From: Sulfurovum sp. AR
Lineage (GTDB): Bacteria; Campylobacterota; Campylobacteria; Campylobacterales; Sulfurovaceae
Assembly: GCF_000296775.1 (NCBI RefSeq)
Contig: NZ_AJLE01000003.1
Coordinates: 62,001 to 126,000, forward strand
Reading direction: 5' to 3'
Length of the DNA stretch: 64,000 nt
This document shows, piece after piece, positions 20,475 to 32,615 of the stretch. Numbering within the stretch: position 1 is the stretch's first letter; the number at the start of each line of letters is the position of its first letter. Position numbers and translations under genes: made by a program. Under the pieces are notes generated by a model. That model worked only from the letters and a program-made list of their open reading frames with translations, was not told where the DNA came from and did not search any database.

Positions 20475-21380
20475 CTAGAGTAGCGTATCCTCTAATGTAG
20501 CATCAGTAATATCTCGTACTGTTGTTTCATCTACATTAACAGGTACATTATTGATATATCCTAAAATAGTTACAAAGTCACCTAAGTTATCTATCTCAAC
20601 AACAACCAAATCATAGACTCCTGTAGCAAGCCAAGGCAATGTGTAATCTCCATCTGTTGCATCTGTACTTACGATTGCATTACCAAAGTTATTTGTAGTA
20701 TTTGATTCATTGCTATCAAACGTTTCATCCTCATAAGCATATACAATCACTTTAGAAGAAACATTTGCATCCAAAGTCATAGTACCATTGATCTCACCGA
20801 CTTCCATATTATCTATAAGTCTAATAGTAGGGTTAAGTTTGTATTCTGATGTTTGTGTCTTTCCATTTTTCGCAATCGTCACAGACTTCCTTACATCAAA
20901 ATCAGCAGTAATATTAGTCGTTCCTCCAGCAGCTATAACAAATCCATTAGTAGACTTATATCCAGTTTGTTCCTCACTTGCCATTGTTAGCATTTGTGTT
21001 GGAGAACCATCATTAAATGTAATATAGCAGTTACTTATATTAAGATCAAAACGGACATGACTTATCTCGCCCGCTGGTAATTCTACTCTATTTAACATTG
21101 TAGTATTTCCTTCTTGTAATGCGAGAAGGTTAATCGTTCTTGACTCATTTAAATCTACATCTTGCCAACCCTCATTGCTGTCTTTATATTGGTAACGCAA
21201 TGCCGTAAAAGTAACATATACACCTTCTACAGTCTCATCATCGATGGGTGCATCTGTTAGTCTCATATTCACTATACCTGTAGTAGCGTCGGATGAAGTA
21301 CCACCGCCTCCACATCCAGAGATAAGTGTCATTAGGATGAACGATAGTATAATACCGATCAAAGTGTTAAATCTTTTCAT
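20475..21380 (-). CDS. DUF4382 lipoprotein under tandem c-di-GMP riboswitches
   Basis: A 301-residue secreted lipoprotein: signal peptide ending LISGC, lipidated Cys at 23, then a GGGG spacer. Residues about 33-170 match DUF4382 (GIVNMRLTDAPIDD, VYVTFTALRYQYKDSNEGWQDV, LPAGEISHVRFDL). Residues about 200-300 look like a carboxypeptidase-regulatory/beta-sandwich domain (GTMTLDANVSSKVIVYAYEDE, DYTLPWLATGVYDLVVVE). It is probably an outer-membrane or surface protein. The start is ATG 21380, with AAGGAT upstream. A longer frame begins at 21428 but lacks a signal-peptide logic and runs into the riboswitch. Two riboswitch-like elements lie 50 and 208 nt upstream, so c-di-GMP control is expected. DUF4382 has no settled function. 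Confidence 0.85.
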   Translation of the reverse strand: MKRFNTLIGIILSFILMTLISGCGGGGTSSDATTGIVNMRLTDAPIDDETVEGVYVTFTALRYQYKDSNEGWQDVDLNESRTINLLALQEGNTTMLNRVELPAGEISHVRFDLNISNCYITFNDGSPTQMLTMASEEQTGYKSTNGFVIAAGGTTNITADFDVRKSVTIAKNGKTQTSEYKLNPTIRLIDNMEVGEINGTMTLDANVSSKVIVYAYEDETFDSNESNTTNNFGNAIVSTDATDGDYTLPWLATGVYDLVVVEIDNLGDFVTILGYINNVPVNVDETTVRDITDATLEDTLL

Positions 21381-21430
21381 AAATATCCTTAGCGTAATTG
21401 AATGTTGCACAAAAGAAATGAGATTCATTT

Positions 21431-21498
21431 TGGCAGCCTGGCGATCTTACTCTTAAAGACCCATAGCTTTCCGTCCTTGCTTCACAGCAAGTTTGGCA
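21431..21498 (-). ncRNA. c-di-GMP-I (GEMM) riboswitch, gene-proximal copy
   Basis: Read on the minus strand, this has the GEMM pattern: GCCAAA; a 6-bp stem CTTGCT/AGCAAG closed by a GTGA (GNRA) tetraloop; the conserved strand GGACGGAAAGC; a second stem GGTCTT/AAGATC; and the closing GCCAGGCTGCC. It lies in the leader of the DUF4382 gene. A short A/T-rich hairpin (AAATGA/TCATTT) followed by CTTTTG comes just after it and could be part of the expression platform. I infer c-di-GMP as ligand from the family. A cGAMP-type variant cannot be excluded by eye. Confidence 0.87.
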
Positions 21499-21588
21499 CA
21501 ACAAAATAAGTTTGAATTAAATAGAATTTGCAGGCAGCACAAGTAGATAAAAACAGAACAATACATCATACACTTCTGTATTGGTATT

Positions 21589-21656
21589 TGGCAACCTGGC
21601 GATCTTAGCATTAAGACCCATGGCTTTCCGTCCCTGCTTCACAACAAGTTTGGCAC
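21589..21656 (-). ncRNA. c-di-GMP-I (GEMM) riboswitch, distal tandem copy
   Basis: Same architecture as the proximal copy, 158 nt upstream of it on the same transcript. The first stem is CTTGTT/AGCAGG with wobble pairs, again closed by GTGA. The GGACGGAAAGC strand and the second stem GGTCTT/AAGATC are unchanged, and the loop differs. Stem-preserving differences between copies support a folded RNA rather than a random repeat. Confidence 0.87.
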
Positions 21657-21697
21657 AACAAATAATATTTAAAATGTCTCTTTACTATAACAGATTC

Positions 21698-21703
21698 ATT
21701 ATA
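21698..21703 (-). promoter_or_regulatory. -10 box of the riboswitch-DUF4382 transcript
   Basis: TATAAT on the minus strand, 42 nt upstream of the distal riboswitch. The surrounding TTCATTATAT (plus strand) is repeated at the promoter of the third riboswitch (29058), so promoter and aptamer appear to have been copied together. Confidence 0.6.
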
Positions 21704-21753: not shown

Positions 21754-24054
21754 TTATAATATTTGAATCTCAGTAACATTCTTTAAACACAGTTTGTCAA
21801 ACTCTTCTACATTAACAGCTTTGGAGAAATGATACCCTTGATACCTAAGTCTTGGATCTAGCTCTCTAAGCAGCTCTAGTTGCCGTTCGTTTTCAATACC
21901 TTCTATAACAATGTTATAGTTGAATTGTCTTCCTATATCCAATATGCTTGAAACAAGATGCACTTCACTAGGGTTGGATTCTATATTTTTTATAAATTCC
22001 TTATCTATCTTCAATGTATGGAAAGAAAGCTTCTTCAAATAAGATAAAGAAGAGTAGCCTGTACCAAAATCATCGATGGCACATCTTACTCCCTGTCTAC
22101 GTAATTCATTGATGACATCTTCTGTATAATCAAAATTATCAATCAGTGATCGTTCTGTGATCTCTATCATAATGTCATTAGTCTCTAGTCCATACTCTTT
22201 TAACTTTTTGAGAAATCCTCTAGCAAAATCATTTTCTACAAATTGCTGTGCATTGACATTCATTGAAATATACTCAAGATTCCATCTATTCTCTTTTTTC
22301 CAGTGAGATATATGCTGACATATAGTATCAAGAACCCACCATGTAATCTGTGAAATCAGACCTGCTTTAATAGCCAATGGTATAAAATCCTGTGGTGAGA
22401 GGGACCCTCTTGTCGGATGTTCCCAACGTACAAGTGCCTCCGCAGAACATACTACATCTTCATCTATTGAAACTACCGGTTGATAAAAGAGACTCAACTG
22501 ATTATTTTTGACTGCATATATCAGATCATGCTGAAGTATAAATAGCTCTTTTTGTTGTTTGTCTAAAGAGGAATCATAATAGGCGATATGTCCATTATCA
22601 ATCTTTGCTTGATACATTGAAAGGTCAGCATGTCTTATGATCTCTACAATATCCTTATAACCAGGGTCCATAAGCACGATACCAATACTTGATTTAATAT
22701 GTAAATGCATTTCTTTTATAATAAATGGTTCTAAGAAAAGATCCTGTATCTCTCTAGAAAACTCTTCAGCTTCTTGATTTGCCATATTTTTATCTTCTGA
22801 TACATGTGGAATGATAATGATAAATTCATCTCCCCCTAATCTGCTTACCATACAATCTTTTCCTAAAAGACTGGTCAAACGTTTAGAAACAGCAAGAAGA
22901 ACATCATCTCCAACTTGATGTCCCAAAGAGTCATTAATGCTTTTAAACTGATTGAGATCAAGATAAAAAAGTATGGAAAAATATGTTTGATGTTTTGGAC
23001 TCGTTACAAGATTCTCCATATAGTTTCTAAAACCTCTACGATTTAACAAACCTGTAAGTACATCATGCTGCACCATATATTCAAGATCTGTTAAGGCGGT
23101 ATGTTCTTTCGTTTTATCCTCTATCATACCTACGCCGCCCAAAATATCATTATCCAGATCGGTAAAGGAAAACACTTTGGCATCAATCCAAAAAGACTTA
23201 TTCTTTAGAGATACATAGGGACCTTCATAAGACTCTGTTCCCTCTATAATGGCATTTTCCAATACTTTTACAATATCTCTATCCGGAAGGAGATGAAGAT
23301 CCATACCTCTGATCTCATCTGTTTCATATTCAAAGAGTTTCTTTAACTGTTCATTGCACTCCAGTACCTTGAGGTCTTTATCATATGTAAAGATACCAAG
23401 AGGTGCATTTTTAAACAGGCTGTTTAAGAGCATATGCTCAGATTGCAACGTATTAAAAGCATTTTTTTGTTGATACATATTAGAGATGTTGATCACTTGT
23501 GCAAGAAAATACAGGATCAATGAAATCGTAAGTATGATATGCAAAGGTGTATCATAAAGAAATGCAATGGTAGAAATAAGAGGCAGTAAAAGAATGGCTG
23601 AATACATAATGTTGAGCCGTGCATCTGCTGATAAAGAGACTGTAGAACCTAAAGAGAGGCCTACAAGCACTGCAACGATATACAGTTGATAATAGTGATC
23701 CACCTGATGAATAAAAATAAAACCTAATGTTGAGAAAATAAGTGCAGTCAATATGACATCAAAGACAAACTTTTTATACCATAAGGCCATAGCATATTTT
23801 TTAGGGTTATGTTTAAAGATATAGGCAGAATAAAGTCTATATCCCGTCAAGAGCATCAAACTCAGTGCCCATACCAGAATACTGCCATCAAGTATTGGGT
23901 ATAAAGCTATAATGATTAAAATAGCTAACAATACAACAACCAGGAGTGCTCTAGTTGAAAGTGTATAGAGTGCGATGATCACAGAGTCATCAACCGTTTG
24001 AAGTTCTTTTATTGACGAGAATAATCTTTTTAAATTCATACAACATTGTAGCAT
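21754..24054 (-). CDS. Membrane GGDEF-EAL protein with PAS domain
   Basis: A 766-residue bifunctional-looking c-di-GMP enzyme. The N-terminus (about 25-190) holds five or six transmembrane helices. A PAS domain follows (about 205-320: NAPLGIFTYDKDLKVLECNEQ). GGDEF is at about 330-490 with an intact RLGGDEF, and EAL at about 505-755 with SAEALVRWEHP, DDFGTGYSS and IVIEGIE. Both active sites look complete. The inhibitory RxxD site before GGDEF is absent (LGKD), so product feedback may be missing. The start is ATG 24054 or 24039 (MNLKRLF); neither has a strong ribosome site. It lies next to the riboswitch-controlled DUF4382 gene. Confidence 0.93.
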   Translation of the reverse strand: MLQCCMNLKRLFSSIKELQTVDDSVIIALYTLSTRALLVVVLLAILIIIALYPILDGSILVWALSLMLLTGYRLYSAYIFKHNPKKYAMALWYKKFVFDVILTALIFSTLGFIFIHQVDHYYQLYIVAVLVGLSLGSTVSLSADARLNIMYSAILLLPLISTIAFLYDTPLHIILTISLILYFLAQVINISNMYQQKNAFNTLQSEHMLLNSLFKNAPLGIFTYDKDLKVLECNEQLKKLFEYETDEIRGMDLHLLPDRDIVKVLENAIIEGTESYEGPYVSLKNKSFWIDAKVFSFTDLDNDILGGVGMIEDKTKEHTALTDLEYMVQHDVLTGLLNRRGFRNYMENLVTSPKHQTYFSILFYLDLNQFKSINDSLGHQVGDDVLLAVSKRLTSLLGKDCMVSRLGGDEFIIIIPHVSEDKNMANQEAEEFSREIQDLFLEPFIIKEMHLHIKSSIGIVLMDPGYKDIVEIIRHADLSMYQAKIDNGHIAYYDSSLDKQQKELFILQHDLIYAVKNNQLSLFYQPVVSIDEDVVCSAEALVRWEHPTRGSLSPQDFIPLAIKAGLISQITWWVLDTICQHISHWKKENRWNLEYISMNVNAQQFVENDFARGFLKKLKEYGLETNDIMIEITERSLIDNFDYTEDVINELRRQGVRCAIDDFGTGYSSLSYLKKLSFHTLKIDKEFIKNIESNPSEVHLVSSILDIGRQFNYNIVIEGIENERQLELLRELDPRLRYQGYHFSKAVNVEEFDKLCLKNVTEIQIL

Positions 24055-25649: not shown

Positions 25650-28091
25650 ATGAAGTTAAATGTTAAATCATTAATGCTCTTACTGAGTATGGGCGTTGTT
25701 TTATCATTAAGCGGATGTGGTGGTGGTAGCAGCACATCTGCAGTAACAGAAGAACCGAAGTTAGGAGATCAGACTATATTAGCTGATGGATCCATAGAAT
25801 ATGTGGACTATACAGGAGGCACTCGTATAGCACCTCCATCAGCTGCAGCTGCAGAATATCATACTGGTGTAGATTTTAATCATACTCTATTTGACAGTGC
25901 AGATAAGAAATGTCAGAATTGTCATAATGAACTGTATGATACCTGGAAAAGTTCTATGCACGGTCAATCATGGAATGATCCAATTTTCCAATCTAAATTC
26001 CAGGATTTCTTACGTACTCACCTAGCAAAAATTGGACAGCACCCAAATTCAGATGGAAACTTGGCTACGACTGATGATGGTATACTCTATCAACAAAAAG
26101 ATATTATTGATGGTGATAGTGTAGGAACTAAAAATATGTTTAGCAGTGCAGCACAAACATGTATCAAATGTCATGCGCCAGGTGCATACTATGCAGGTGA
26201 TGTTAAAGTCACTGTAACTGATATAGGAAGTGCAATAGACCTTAATAATACAGAGTTAAAAGCCTTGAAAGCATTACATGAGCCAGCAGTACAGGATCCA
26301 AACGGAGAGATCGCAGTCATTGCAGCAAACCCTCAAAGAGATAGAGTGTATAAAGCTACCTTCCAGATCGGACATGAAGCAAACCGTGAAGGAATTAATT
26401 GTGCATTCTGTCACAGTATAGAGACACCTAGACTGATGAAAGAGAATGGCATGGATAATGGTTTATATACTTTAGCTAAAGATATGCGTGTAGGACCTCA
26501 TGGACCAATAAAACATGATGCAGATGTAGATGGACCACTCATATATAATGATGATGCAACAAATGCTCATATGAATAAGTTCTTTAGACTTTGGGGACCT
26601 GAGAAGTATCATGATAATACTAGTGATAATGCACATACACCAAAAGATAATTTTGATGTAACTGATCCAAGTAAGACAGCTGATGGACGCTACACAATGG
26701 CAAGTAAAGATATCAATGGAACAGATGGCAAAGTACACTTTACTGGTGGACCTTTCTATGGACCATATGGCGTAACAGGTATCTCAAATGAAAATGAAAC
26801 AGATGAAACAAACAGAACAGCACAGGTTAATCCACACTATGATATGAATGGTAACAACCACTTTGGAGAAAGCGGTAAAGGACTATGTCTTTCATGTCAC
26901 CAACGTTCTGCAGGTGCAGCGGTTCCAGGCGGTGAAGAGGGTGCAAGTCACTTTATGGAACTCTGTTCTACACAAATGGCTGTGACGACAGGTGATGATG
27001 TAGCTTCAAATGACACATTAAGTTCACCGAAGTGTCAAAAATGTCACATGGAGAGAATAGAAGGTACGGTACTTCACCAATGGGCACGTCCAGACAAGTT
27101 ATGGACACTTGCAGACAATCCTAATCTAACGGCACACTTTGATCCTGAAGATCCAGAAAATCATGGTGATGAAAACCCAGTTGCTGCTGCTTGGTTGAAC
27201 TCACATGCATTCTTAGGTGCAAGTAAAACATTTAAAGATACAGATAGAAAGGCAAGTGCTACAGCAAAAATAAAAAGTGGATTTGAAGCGACAGTAAATG
27301 AGTCAGTTGAGGGTAATACATTAACCGTGACCACAGCACTCACAAATAAAACTGCTCACATGTTCCCAGGTGCACACCCAATGCGTCGTGTATTGACACG
27401 TCTTGTTGTAACATCGGATCAAGGTTTAGTTCCTGTTAGTACTAGTACTGGTAACTCTTCATTTGACTATATTGAAAATGATGTACAACCATTAGCTGGT
27501 AAAGTACTTCACTCAAGTGCATTAACTCCAGTTCCAGTTGCCAATAATGGAAGTGAAAATCTAGAATTCCCTGGAAAGGTGGCAGACTTGAATGGTTCAA
27601 ATGTTAGTGGCCAAAAGTTTGATGGTACACCATACACTATTGAGGGGGTAGATGCAACAGTAAGCTTCGACACTCAATCTACAGATAATAGTGGAGTAAC
27701 AACAGGTACTGTAACAAATGCCGCGATAGTCGAAGATAGTAATAACACTACGTTTACTCGAATTTATGGACATGAAACAGGTAAAAGGTATGATTCAAAT
27801 GGTAAGCCTAGTAAGACTACTACCGATACCTTTATTGTACGTCCAGGATTTGACTCATGGATGGTTGAAAAAGATAACCGCCTAAGTCCTAATGAGACTG
27901 AAACATATACACTGACTTACGATATCACAGATAAGACGAATGTCAAAGTAGAATATAGAGTCTATTACATGCAAAAAGGTGCTAATGGTAAATTCATCGT
28001 CGATCCAGCTACTGGTTTCCTTGACCAAGCTAAGAGTGATGCGAAGAAACTATTGGTTACAGAAGTTTATAAGTATCCGGAATTACCTTAG
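25650..28091 (+). CDS. Five-haem c-type cytochrome lipoprotein
   Basis: An 813-residue exported lipoprotein (lipobox LSLSGC, Cys23) with five CxxCH haem sites at Cys88 (CQNCH), Cys171 (CIKCH), Cys251 (CAFCH), Cys413 (CLSCH) and Cys462 (CQKCH). Residues about 530-813 carry no haem motif and look like beta-sandwich repeats (TVNESVEGNTLTVTTALTNKT; ETETYTLTYDITDKTNVKVEYRVYY). It should sit on the outer membrane facing the periplasm or the outside. Electron transfer or an associated redox enzyme activity is likely. I do not recognise a characterised family. The start ATG follows GGAAGAAGA. The gene is solitary, ended by a good hairpin, and borders a c-di-GMP-related region. Confidence 0.85.
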   Translation: MKLNVKSLMLLLSMGVVLSLSGCGGGSSTSAVTEEPKLGDQTILADGSIEYVDYTGGTRIAPPSAAAAEYHTGVDFNHTLFDSADKKCQNCHNELYDTWKSSMHGQSWNDPIFQSKFQDFLRTHLAKIGQHPNSDGNLATTDDGILYQQKDIIDGDSVGTKNMFSSAAQTCIKCHAPGAYYAGDVKVTVTDIGSAIDLNNTELKALKALHEPAVQDPNGEIAVIAANPQRDRVYKATFQIGHEANREGINCAFCHSIETPRLMKENGMDNGLYTLAKDMRVGPHGPIKHDADVDGPLIYNDDATNAHMNKFFRLWGPEKYHDNTSDNAHTPKDNFDVTDPSKTADGRYTMASKDINGTDGKVHFTGGPFYGPYGVTGISNENETDETNRTAQVNPHYDMNGNNHFGESGKGLCLSCHQRSAGAAVPGGEEGASHFMELCSTQMAVTTGDDVASNDTLSSPKCQKCHMERIEGTVLHQWARPDKLWTLADNPNLTAHFDPEDPENHGDENPVAAAWLNSHAFLGASKTFKDTDRKASATAKIKSGFEATVNESVEGNTLTVTTALTNKTAHMFPGAHPMRRVLTRLVVTSDQGLVPVSTSTGNSSFDYIENDVQPLAGKVLHSSALTPVPVANNGSENLEFPGKVADLNGSNVSGQKFDGTPYTIEGVDATVSFDTQSTDNSGVTTGTVTNAAIVEDSNNTTFTRIYGHETGKRYDSNGKPSKTTTDTFIVRPGFDSWMVEKDNRLSPNETETYTLTYDITDKTNVKVEYRVYYMQKGANGKFIVDPATGFLDQAKSDAKKLLVTEVYKYPELP

Positions 28092-28356: not shown

Positions 28357-28794
28357 CTACGGAATAAAAAAAGCCAAAACAGCACCAACAGTTACAAATA
28401 AATATGCACCGATGGACCATAGTTCAATGGTCGTAGGTACCTGTTCTACAGTAAGAAAGTTATTGATCGACATGCCACCATAGAAATAAAATAAAAAGTA
28501 ACTAATAACAAATCCCAGTATATAAGGGAGAAAGAAAATAACCAAAAGTAAAGAAATTTCGGTATTTTGCTTAATAAGATCTGTCAATTCATTTTTTAGA
28601 GTAAACTTCGCGCCTATTTTTTGAATTTTGGCATGGTTATTCAAAAATATTTTCTTTTTCTGAGGGATAGTAGTGTCTTTAGAAGCTTCCTCTTTCATAT
28701 CTTCGATAAGTTTATCTTGATTATCTTTTGATGCTTCTGTAAGCTCACCCCAATCTAAATTTTCTTCTTCTATGGTCTCATTTCTTACGTACAT
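28357..28794 (-). CDS. Small two-helix membrane protein behind a c-di-GMP riboswitch
   Basis: A 145-residue protein I cannot assign to a family. Residues 1-75 are charged and probably cytoplasmic (EEENLDWGELTEASKDNQDKLIEDMKEE; a Lys-rich patch at PQKKKIF). Two transmembrane helices follow at about 80-103 (ISLLLVIFFLPYILGFVISYF) and 124-144 (LWSIGAYLFVTVGAVLAFFIP). The ATG has AGAGGAT 5 nt upstream. A riboswitch of the c-di-GMP-I type lies about 160 nt upstream on the same strand with its own -10 box, so expression is probably set by c-di-GMP. The helical hairpin could be a membrane adaptor or a small secretion component; this is speculation. Confidence 0.78.
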   Translation of the reverse strand: MYVRNETIEEENLDWGELTEASKDNQDKLIEDMKEEASKDTTIPQKKKIFLNNHAKIQKIGAKFTLKNELTDLIKQNTEISLLLVIFFLPYILGFVISYFLFYFYGGMSINNFLTVEQVPTTIELWSIGAYLFVTVGAVLAFFIP

Positions 28795-28953
28795 GATAAT
28801 CCTCTACTGTAGATATTGCATTTTTAAAAATGATTCTAAAATGTCATACATTCTATGATACGGGTCATTTTTGTTAGAACAAAAATAATTTTAAATTTAA
28901 TAAGATTTATGCATAAAAGAGGAAAGAAGAACTGTACATAACATATGAAAATG

Positions 28954-29021
28954 TAGCAACTTGGCGATCTTATTTCATAAGACCCATAGCTTTCCGTCCC
29001 TGCTTCACAACAAGTTTGGCT
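28954..29021 (-). ncRNA. c-di-GMP-I (GEMM) riboswitch, third copy
   Basis: Minus-strand element nearly identical to the two copies at 21.4-21.7 kb: GCCAAA, stem CTTGTT/AGCAGG with GTGA tetraloop, GGACGGAAAGC, stem GGTCTT/AAGATC with a different loop, and GCCAAGTTGC at the end. It lies in the leader of the 145-residue membrane protein gene at 28794, about 160 nt upstream of its start. Confidence 0.86.
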
Positions 29022-29057
29022 CAATCAATACTATTTAAAAGTAATTTTTCGTGGTTC

Positions 29058-29966: not shown

Positions 29967-32615
29967 ATGTTTAGAAAAATATTCCTTGTATTAATTTTAT
30001 CTGCAGTGACATCCTATGCTACCGTTACACTTACCAATGATAAACAAACATATGACCACTTTGCACTCTACTATTTTTATGATGAAAGCAATACACTGGG
30101 TATTCATGACATTGAAAAGATAGAGTGTACAAAGGTCATACCCAATCAATTTTCTCAAGGATATTATTCGGGAACAGCATGGTTCAAACTCAATGTGACA
30201 AATCATAGCGACAGTGAAGATTATGTCCTTTATTTTACAGAACCTTTTTGGTCAACGCTTGATCTCTATACCAAAATGAATGATACATGGACTATACAAA
30301 AAAATGGTCTCAAAGTAAGCCTTCAAGAAAGAAGTATTCAAAACTATAATCCCGCCTATAAACTACATATCTTACCGGGTGAAAGTGTGACATACTATAT
30401 AAAAGGTCAGACACTTTCCGGACATATTGGTGAATTTAAGATCTTCACTGAAGACGAGTTTTTTAGACCCAACCGTATCGATATTACCGACATCTACATA
30501 ATCTATGCTTCTATCTTATTCATTATAATCCTCTTCAGTATGTATAACCTGATCGTCATTAAAAATCGTATCTTTGCTTATTACATCGCATATATACTCT
30601 CTTTTATTGTCTTTATCGCTATGAAAAGTGGGTTTTACTTAGAGTTCGGTTTTCCCGGCTGGAGTCAAGGTCTGCATGTCGTAGGTACGATCGTTGTATT
30701 CTTTCTGGTACTATTCTCAGGCCGTTTTTTGGAGTTAAAAACACGTATGCCAATGATCGATAAGCTCTTTAGAGTATCTGCAGCCATTTTTTTACTGTTT
30801 GCACTGCTGATATCACAGGATACCCCTTTTGCCTGTTTAGCATTTAACATCTATTCATCATTGTTCTTTATCCTCCTCCTTGTGGTTGCGGTCAAAGCCT
30901 TGTATCAAGGTCTTATCGGTGCCAGATACTATCTCATTGCACTGATCATCTATATGCCTGCTATGGGTATGATGACTTTGACCTTTAATGGTCTCTTGGA
31001 CAATACAGACATAAATAGATACGCTTTTCTTGTAGGTTCTTTTATTGAGATTATCTTCTTTACAATTATCTTGACCAACAAGTACCGTGAACTGAATCTC
31101 AAGAAGTTACAAAAACAAAAGATACTTTTAAAAGCAAAAAAGAGCAATCAAAAGTTTTTAGAAACGAAGATCCAACAAAAAACCAATGACCTTCTTAGTA
31201 TAAATCAACAATTATTAAAGAAAACGCAAGAGCTTGAGATCACTAAAGAGCAGTTGACCAGAGATATACAGGAACGTACAGAAGCTGAAAAAGAAATAGA
31301 AAAACAAAAAGATATCTTACATCACCAAGCCAATCATGATTCACTTACTGGACTTCCTAACCGTGCACTATTTAACATTCGCTTAAAACAAGGGATCAAA
31401 AAGGCAAAAAAACAAGAGAAAGGGTTGGCACTCTTTTTTATCGACTTGGATAAATTTAAAGAGATCAATGACTCCTTGGGTCATGATGTGGGAGACAGAG
31501 TACTAAAAATCATAACGGCCATACTCAAAAGTTCCATCCGAAAAGAAGATACACTTGCCCGTTTGGCCGGAGATGAATTTACGATCATTATGGAAGATAT
31601 AACCTATTCAGAAGATGTCTCTAAATTAGGACATGCCATTCTCAATATGTTTGCTGACCCCATACATGTTGATGAGCATGTATTATATATGACCAGCAGT
31701 ATCGGTATCAGTCTTTATCCCCAGGATGCAAAAAATGAGAAAGACCTTCTAAAGTATGCTGATACGGCAATGTATAGGGCAAAAGAAAGCGGACGTAACA
31801 ATTTTCAGTTCTATAGACCTGAAATGACTGAACATGCTCTGGAACAAATGCAGATGAAAACCAGTTTACGTCAAGCCATTGACAACGAAGAGTTTATAAT
31901 TCACTATCAACCGCAGGTCGATATCGCTACCGATACATTGGTGGGGATCGAGGCACTGTTGCGATGGCAGCATCCAAGCAAAGGTCTGCTAACACCTAAA
32001 AAATTTATTTCATTGGCAGAAGAGACTGGTATGATACTTGAAATTGATGACTGGGTAATGCATACAACTATGAAACAGGTTTCCAAATGGTATCATGACG
32101 GTTTAGACCCAGGGAAACTCGCATTAAATATTTCCATGAAACACTTGGAAGCTCCTAATTTCATCTATAGAATTCAAAACACTATGGACAGTTATGGTTT
32201 CAAACCAGAGTGGCTGGAATTGGAAATCACAGAAGGCCATATGATGAAAAATGCTATGGAGATCATTAATAAACTCAAACAGGTCAGTAAACTGGGAATC
32301 AATATCTCTATCGATGACTTCGGAACAGGATACTCCTCCTTGTCTCTTTTAAAGCGTCTACCCATCAACAGACTTAAGATCGATAAATCATTTATTGAAG
32401 ATATCCCTGAAGATGAAGAGGATCTTACTATTATTAACTCTATCATAGCACTTGCAAAGAGTCTCAATCTTAAGGTCATAGCAGAGGGTGTAGAGACGAT
32501 AGAACAGATCAATTTTCTAAAAAGTAAAAAGTGTAAATATGTACAAGGACACTACTATTTTTACCCTATGTCTGCAGATGAACTGCAAGAGATACTTTTA
32601 ACCAATAATGAATAG
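29967..32615 (+). CDS. 7TMR-DISM sensor with GGDEF and EAL domains
   Basis: An 882-residue membrane sensor. It has a signal peptide (1-19, SAVTSYA), a periplasmic 7TMR-DISM extracellular domain (about 25-160), seven transmembrane helices (about 175-390: ITDIYIIYASILFIIILFSMYNL onward), a coiled coil (about 390-450), GGDEF (about 460-615) and EAL (about 630-875). The cyclase motif reads RLAGDEF, a tolerated active variant. An inhibitory RxxD site (RKED) lies five residues before it, so product inhibition is likely. EAL motifs GIEALLRWQHP, DDFGTGYSS and VIAEGVE are intact. It probably senses a carbohydrate or other periplasmic ligand and sets c-di-GMP. The start is ATG with GCGGGAT upstream. 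Confidence 0.93.
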   Translation: MFRKIFLVLILSAVTSYATVTLTNDKQTYDHFALYYFYDESNTLGIHDIEKIECTKVIPNQFSQGYYSGTAWFKLNVTNHSDSEDYVLYFTEPFWSTLDLYTKMNDTWTIQKNGLKVSLQERSIQNYNPAYKLHILPGESVTYYIKGQTLSGHIGEFKIFTEDEFFRPNRIDITDIYIIYASILFIIILFSMYNLIVIKNRIFAYYIAYILSFIVFIAMKSGFYLEFGFPGWSQGLHVVGTIVVFFLVLFSGRFLELKTRMPMIDKLFRVSAAIFLLFALLISQDTPFACLAFNIYSSLFFILLLVVAVKALYQGLIGARYYLIALIIYMPAMGMMTLTFNGLLDNTDINRYAFLVGSFIEIIFFTIILTNKYRELNLKKLQKQKILLKAKKSNQKFLETKIQQKTNDLLSINQQLLKKTQELEITKEQLTRDIQERTEAEKEIEKQKDILHHQANHDSLTGLPNRALFNIRLKQGIKKAKKQEKGLALFFIDLDKFKEINDSLGHDVGDRVLKIITAILKSSIRKEDTLARLAGDEFTIIMEDITYSEDVSKLGHAILNMFADPIHVDEHVLYMTSSIGISLYPQDAKNEKDLLKYADTAMYRAKESGRNNFQFYRPEMTEHALEQMQMKTSLRQAIDNEEFIIHYQPQVDIATDTLVGIEALLRWQHPSKGLLTPKKFISLAEETGMILEIDDWVMHTTMKQVSKWYHDGLDPGKLALNISMKHLEAPNFIYRIQNTMDSYGFKPEWLELEITEGHMMKNAMEIINKLKQVSKLGINISIDDFGTGYSSLSLLKRLPINRLKIDKSFIEDIPEDEEDLTIINSIIALAKSLNLKVIAEGVETIEQINFLKSKKCKYVQGHYYFYPMSADELQEILLTNNE

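Follow-up and report, generated by a model that had tools for sequence, protein, structure and literature searches.

Tandem c-di-GMP-I riboswitches in the leader of a DUF4382 lipoprotein gene of Sulfurovum sp. AR and their conservation within the genus

The window analysed here, a 64,000-nt stretch of Sulfurovum sp. AR (contig NZ_AJLE01000003.1, positions 62,001–126,000), carries on its minus strand a gene (20475–21380) for a 301-residue lipoprotein with the lipobox LISGC and a DUF4382 domain (PF14321; 102.5 bits against a Pfam cut-off of 25 bits, E = 2.8e-29). The ATG at 21380 is preceded by the Shine-Dalgarno sequence AAGGA (21386–21390, minus strand) and lies 47 nt past the nearer of two riboswitch aptamers, in agreement with the distance of about 50 nt given by an earlier, sequence-only reading of this DNA. 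Further upstream on the same strand are a -10 box, TATAAT (21698–21703), which coincides with the end of the interval covered by that reading, and a gene for a GGDEF-EAL protein assigned by Pfam, a candidate c-di-GMP enzyme (21754–24054), with its stop codon 90 nt before the aptamer pair. A neighbouring protein matches a Sulfurovum sp. MAG at 83% identity. The suggestion that the lipoprotein is an adhesin or matrix component is unsupported, as Pfam assigned no functional family beyond DUF4382 and a profile search found no relative in the PDB. An AlphaFold prediction from the single sequence was of low confidence (pLDDT 44).

Rfam covariance models run with cmscan over the whole window, on both strands, identified three riboswitches in total, each belonging to the c-di-GMP-I clan and each above the gathering score. 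The sequence-only reading had described two GEMM-like aptamers 158 nt apart with matching stems and GNRA loops and had named a GEMM-I covariance search as one check; two of the three matches are these aptamers. The distal aptamer (21587–21664, minus strand) scored 59.3 bits with RF01051 (E = 4.5e-9) and the proximal aptamer (21428–21506, minus strand) 59.8 bits with the same model, both over its cut-off of 35 bits, and the proximal aptamer also matched RF03167 with 61.3 bits (E = 5e-12). Both are complete, with a start-to-start spacing of 158 nt and the P2 tetraloop GUGA in each, and they agree at 70 positions of an 80-column alignment; as two complete aptamers of the same class within one leader, they constitute a tandem riboswitch. 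Judged from sequence and position, the pair are almost certainly c-di-GMP-I riboswitches controlling the DUF4382 lipoprotein gene. The third aptamer (28951–29029, minus strand), which the sequence-only reading did not include, has G20, A47 and C92 and lies ~157 nt before a 145-residue membrane-type ORF (28357–28794) that has no match in Pfam and none above cut-off in NCBIfam. Two GGDEF-EAL proteins are encoded near the window riboswitches (21754–24054, minus strand, and 29967–32615, plus strand), one with PAS and one with 7TMR-DISM domains. Between two riboswitch-controlled loci lies the gene for a large lipoprotein (25650–28091, plus strand) that, with its several CxxCH haem motifs, is a putative multihaem cytochrome.

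Ligand contact positions were placed through the cmscan alignment and the conserved-position list of PMC3764141. The c-di-GMP contact set G20, A47 and C92 is present in both aptamers, at 21654, 21627 and 21591 in the distal copy, where P1 is AUUUG/CAAAU, and at 21497, 21470 and 21433 in the proximal copy, where P1 is UUUUG/CAAAA. Because the contacts are identical, a two-ligand logic gate, as had been raised, is unlikely. The proximal aptamer scores 1.5 bits higher with the 'GGC' model RF03167 than with RF01051, which could point to recognition of 3',3'-cGAMP or of whatever ligand the GGC variant binds. However, the two window aptamers and all 100 related aptamers have A47 instead of the G47 that distinguishes this variant, position 20 is G rather than A in the window, and the combination G20/A47 occurs in 99 of 100 related Campylobacterota aptamers. 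The GGC identity of the proximal aptamer was therefore rejected; the model differs from the window at position 47, its label is an artefact of close scores, and sensing of another ligand is very improbable. The pair 21–46, beside the ligand pocket, is C-G in all 100 Campylobacterota aptamers and G-C in the Rfam models; since neither position is among those published as highly conserved (PMC3764141), the reversal is taken to be a tolerated variant. When viral contigs were scanned by pattern for the context of this pair, the matches fell mostly in apparent coding sequence. In another genome of the genus, a riboswitch before a DUF4382 gene (L063, 568–646, minus strand) combines A20 with U92 while keeping A47, and its top Rfam match is c-di-GMP-I-UAU, below the cut-off of that model. 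An engineered G20A/C92U double change in Vc2 reportedly shifts binding to c-di-AMP, and the natural A20/U92 variant deserves a ligand test.

The single promoter box noted upstream of the aptamers holds up in comparison, with a TATATAAT-like box located 5' of the aptamer in most orthologous loci and comparably spaced from it. The leader is thus probably transcribed from a promoter of its own, separate from the upstream GGDEF-EAL gene. The same GGDEF-EAL neighbour is found in four orthologous loci (L060, L062, L080 and L084; 84–92% identity by tblastn).

In the genome (2.13 Mb), 21 c-di-GMP-I aptamers score above cut-off, and among the relatives searched nearly all same-genus genomes have some, two of the 36 others having none. 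An even draw across the phylum, made with stricter filters, was much poorer, with aptamers in just 20 of its 249 genomes and 8 of its 55 genera. Same-strand pairs less than 250 nt apart numbered 19 among about 250 aptamers in 27 fully listed genomes. DUF4382 is encoded by 22 genes in 19 of 78 genomes of the genus, and 19 of these genes have a riboswitch upstream (there is none before L064, L081 and L083), a conserved association that supports the earlier claim that the tandem is placed to control the lipoprotein. A scan of named genomes for related loci containing DUF4382 found none.

Two intact aptamers are present at 10 of the 19 riboswitch-bearing DUF4382 loci, including the window locus. 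Elsewhere, the distal aptamer is reduced to its 5' half (L084) or mutated (L082) beside an intact proximal copy, or is absent from a leader that has the promoter box and a proximal-type aptamer (L053 and L055). By this pattern of sequence retention, the distal copy can be dispensed with and the proximal copy is the more strongly retained. Such losses, together with the close likeness of the two window aptamers, would be expected if the distal aptamer were a passive duplicate left by duplication of the cassette, with only the proximal aptamer regulating. Against this, 10 orthologs keep both aptamers intact and they include members of both deep branches of the DUF4382 tree; because intact copies are unlikely to persist over such divergence without selection, we consider this explanation improbable. 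Given tandems in both deep branches, either the doublet arose long ago or it has been transferred from locus to locus.

The window unit, from promoter through leader, aligns with a tandem unit that precedes the gene for an S8 peptidase elsewhere in the genome, on a different contig, with an alignment score of 345 compared with at most 84.5 for shuffled sequence. This second unit (L005/L007; contig C6, about 400.7–400.9 kb) has a near-identical pair of aptamers, stands before a subtilase gene and is homologous to the window cassette. On this alignment, the regulatory unit is one that has been copied between unrelated genes, those for the DUF4382 lipoprotein and the subtilase. Further riboswitch targets in the genome, as assigned by Pfam, are three PAS proteins, fibronectin-like and carboxypeptidase-regulatory-like lipoproteins, a WecG-type glycosyltransferase, a YkuD transpeptidase, a sensor kinase, an ABC exporter-like protein and a GGDEF-EAL protein. 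The aptamer before this GGDEF-EAL gene (L020; contig C5, 83614–83713, minus strand) suggests feedback on c-di-GMP itself, the messenger perhaps controlling an enzyme of its own metabolism. On contig C8, two c-di-GMP-I aptamers about 350 nt apart (21325–21409, minus strand, and 21760–21834, plus strand) point away from each other, towards a gene for a possible beta-helix protein and a gene for a WecG-type glycosyltransferase.

The short leader between the proximal aptamer and the lipoprotein gene contains a conserved element, UUCUUUUG-UG-CAACAUUC (21400–21417, minus strand), whose arms are invariant in 11 orthologous leaders. In these short leaders, UUCUUUUG, CAACAU and AAGG are all invariant while neighbouring bases vary, and GUUUGUACAACA is the equivalent element in three long-leader orthologs. 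Within the element, UUCUU can pair with the Shine-Dalgarno sequence, whereas the possible partners of UUUUG and CAACA are in P1, on its 3' strand and its 5'/junction strand respectively. The flank of the UUCUU–Shine-Dalgarno helix shows small covariation, the partner of GUG being CAC or CGC and one ortholog having GUA opposite UAC; the main alternative helices are invariant, so that covariation is no evidence for or against them.

Folding of the leaders was compared with and without the aptamer and P1 forced. The Shine-Dalgarno sequence was less accessible in the bound fold in 9 of 11 orthologs (mean 0.37 to 0.23), falling from 0.39 to 0.12 in the window leader, where it is predicted to be hidden when P1 forms; the direction was opposite in two orthologs (L080 and L086). 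The mean free-minus-bound difference was 0.138, compared with -0.024 ± 0.036 for shuffled leaders, and none of 60 shuffled sets was as high, the 11 orthologous leaders not being independent of one another. The probability of P1 without ligand was 0.17 or less, and the predicted cost of the bound fold, 2.5–7.4 kcal/mol, could, in our judgement, be paid by ligand binding. This cost was no different from that of shuffled leaders, and the ligand-free alternative is thus not itself demonstrated. Similarly, for most sequences taken singly, CAACA did not pair with the P1 5' strand more strongly than shuffled leaders did, and folding of the whole leader showed no excess stability (z = 0.48). Concealment of the Shine-Dalgarno sequence in 9 of 11 bound folds, with a mean effect above that of every shuffled set, favours translational repression by c-di-GMP, and these models suggest that the proximal switch is probably translational and OFF. 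The ON direction implied by the sequence-only reading is thus unsupported, and the OFF leaning of the proximal aptamer is a mild argument against a simple switched-on adhesin.

The linker after the distal aptamer (21507–21586, minus strand) contains an AU-rich hairpin (about 21560–21588) that overlaps the 3' strand of the distal P1, and a U-rich run (21549–21553), which weakly suggest a possible terminator or attenuator. Single linker folds were significant only in L080 and L057 and nearly so in L056 and L062, and in most orthologs the U-rich run does not directly follow the hairpin. A scan for intrinsic terminators found none in the linker, and RNAalifold on the ortholog linkers gave no consensus from a gapped, unhelpful alignment. 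Of the two candidate expression platforms, the proximal hairpin that hides the Shine-Dalgarno sequence is backed by the shuffle control, and the distal hairpin has weak support. No terminator is claimed for the linker, and action of the distal aptamer by termination is rated as less likely than not.

The same hairpin bears on the reading that both riboswitches are ON, in which P1 formed by the ligand would disrupt a terminator-like or blocking structure and the lipoprotein would be made at high c-di-GMP as a surface factor of sessile life. The overlap of its 5' arm with the 3' strand of the distal P1 is the arrangement proposed for the ON-type Bacillus tandem Bc3-5 (PMC4759541), and the other riboswitch targets of the genome include surface and cell-envelope genes. 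However, the U-rich run stands apart from the hairpin in most orthologs, the stability of the hairpin is mostly not above that of shuffled sequences, and the proximal leader has a hidden Shine-Dalgarno sequence in the bound fold and no convincing terminator. We regard a pair of ON switches as rather unlikely.

The best explanation of the locus as a whole, which we hold to be somewhat favoured, is a leader with its own promoter in which the proximal aptamer is a translational OFF switch and the distal aptamer a second check. Binding of c-di-GMP to the proximal aptamer would lock the P1 helix (UUUUG/CAAAA), so that the UUCUUUUGUG segment of the leader would be available to the Shine-Dalgarno region for pairing, which would block translation. 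In the ligand-free state, the two P1 strands could be taken up by the leader, the 3' strand by UUUUG and the 5' strand by CAACA, and the ribosome site would open. The distal aptamer, through its own linker hairpin overlapping P1, would add the second check at the level of transcription or of folding, and the two aptamers together would give a steeper response than one. A variant of this arrangement with opposite signs for the same ligand, in which the distal aptamer relieves premature termination (ON) and the proximal aptamer blocks translation (OFF), is decidedly improbable; if true, it would confine the lipoprotein to a middle range of c-di-GMP, as an RNA band-pass filter.

These findings indicate a large c-di-GMP riboswitch regulon in this genus of Campylobacterota and give the DUF4382 lipoproteins, which are without assigned function, a conserved regulator. 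The natural occurrence of one-aptamer, two-aptamer and decayed leaders before one gene family allows a direct test of the benefit of a second aptamer. A literature search found no paper tying such riboswitches to Sulfurovum or Campylobacterota, which is weak evidence as most subscription papers were outside its coverage; the conserved link to DUF4382 and the size of the RNA-controlled c-di-GMP gene set in the genus seem undescribed.

The tandem design itself is already known, as one survey counted 347 doublets and 12 triplets of c-di-GMP-I riboswitches, more doublets than for any other class paired with itself (PMC9481103). A triple riboswitch of Bacillus is more digital than its single units (PMC4759541), and the idea of a sharpened dose response agrees with these published tandems (PMC4759541, PMC9481103). 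The window aptamers share with RF01051 the fold, the GNRA loop, the G20/A47/C92 pocket and the location in a 5' leader, and differ from it, like the other Campylobacterota aptamers, in the C-G pair at 21–46; the c-di-GMP-I-GGC model RF03167, although top-scoring for the proximal aptamer, is set apart by its G47. As in the Bc3-5 tandem of Bacillus thuringiensis, two complete aptamers of the same class each have room for a platform of their own, whereas here the host belongs to Campylobacterota, the target is a DUF4382 lipoprotein and the proximal platform is seemingly translational rather than terminator-based.
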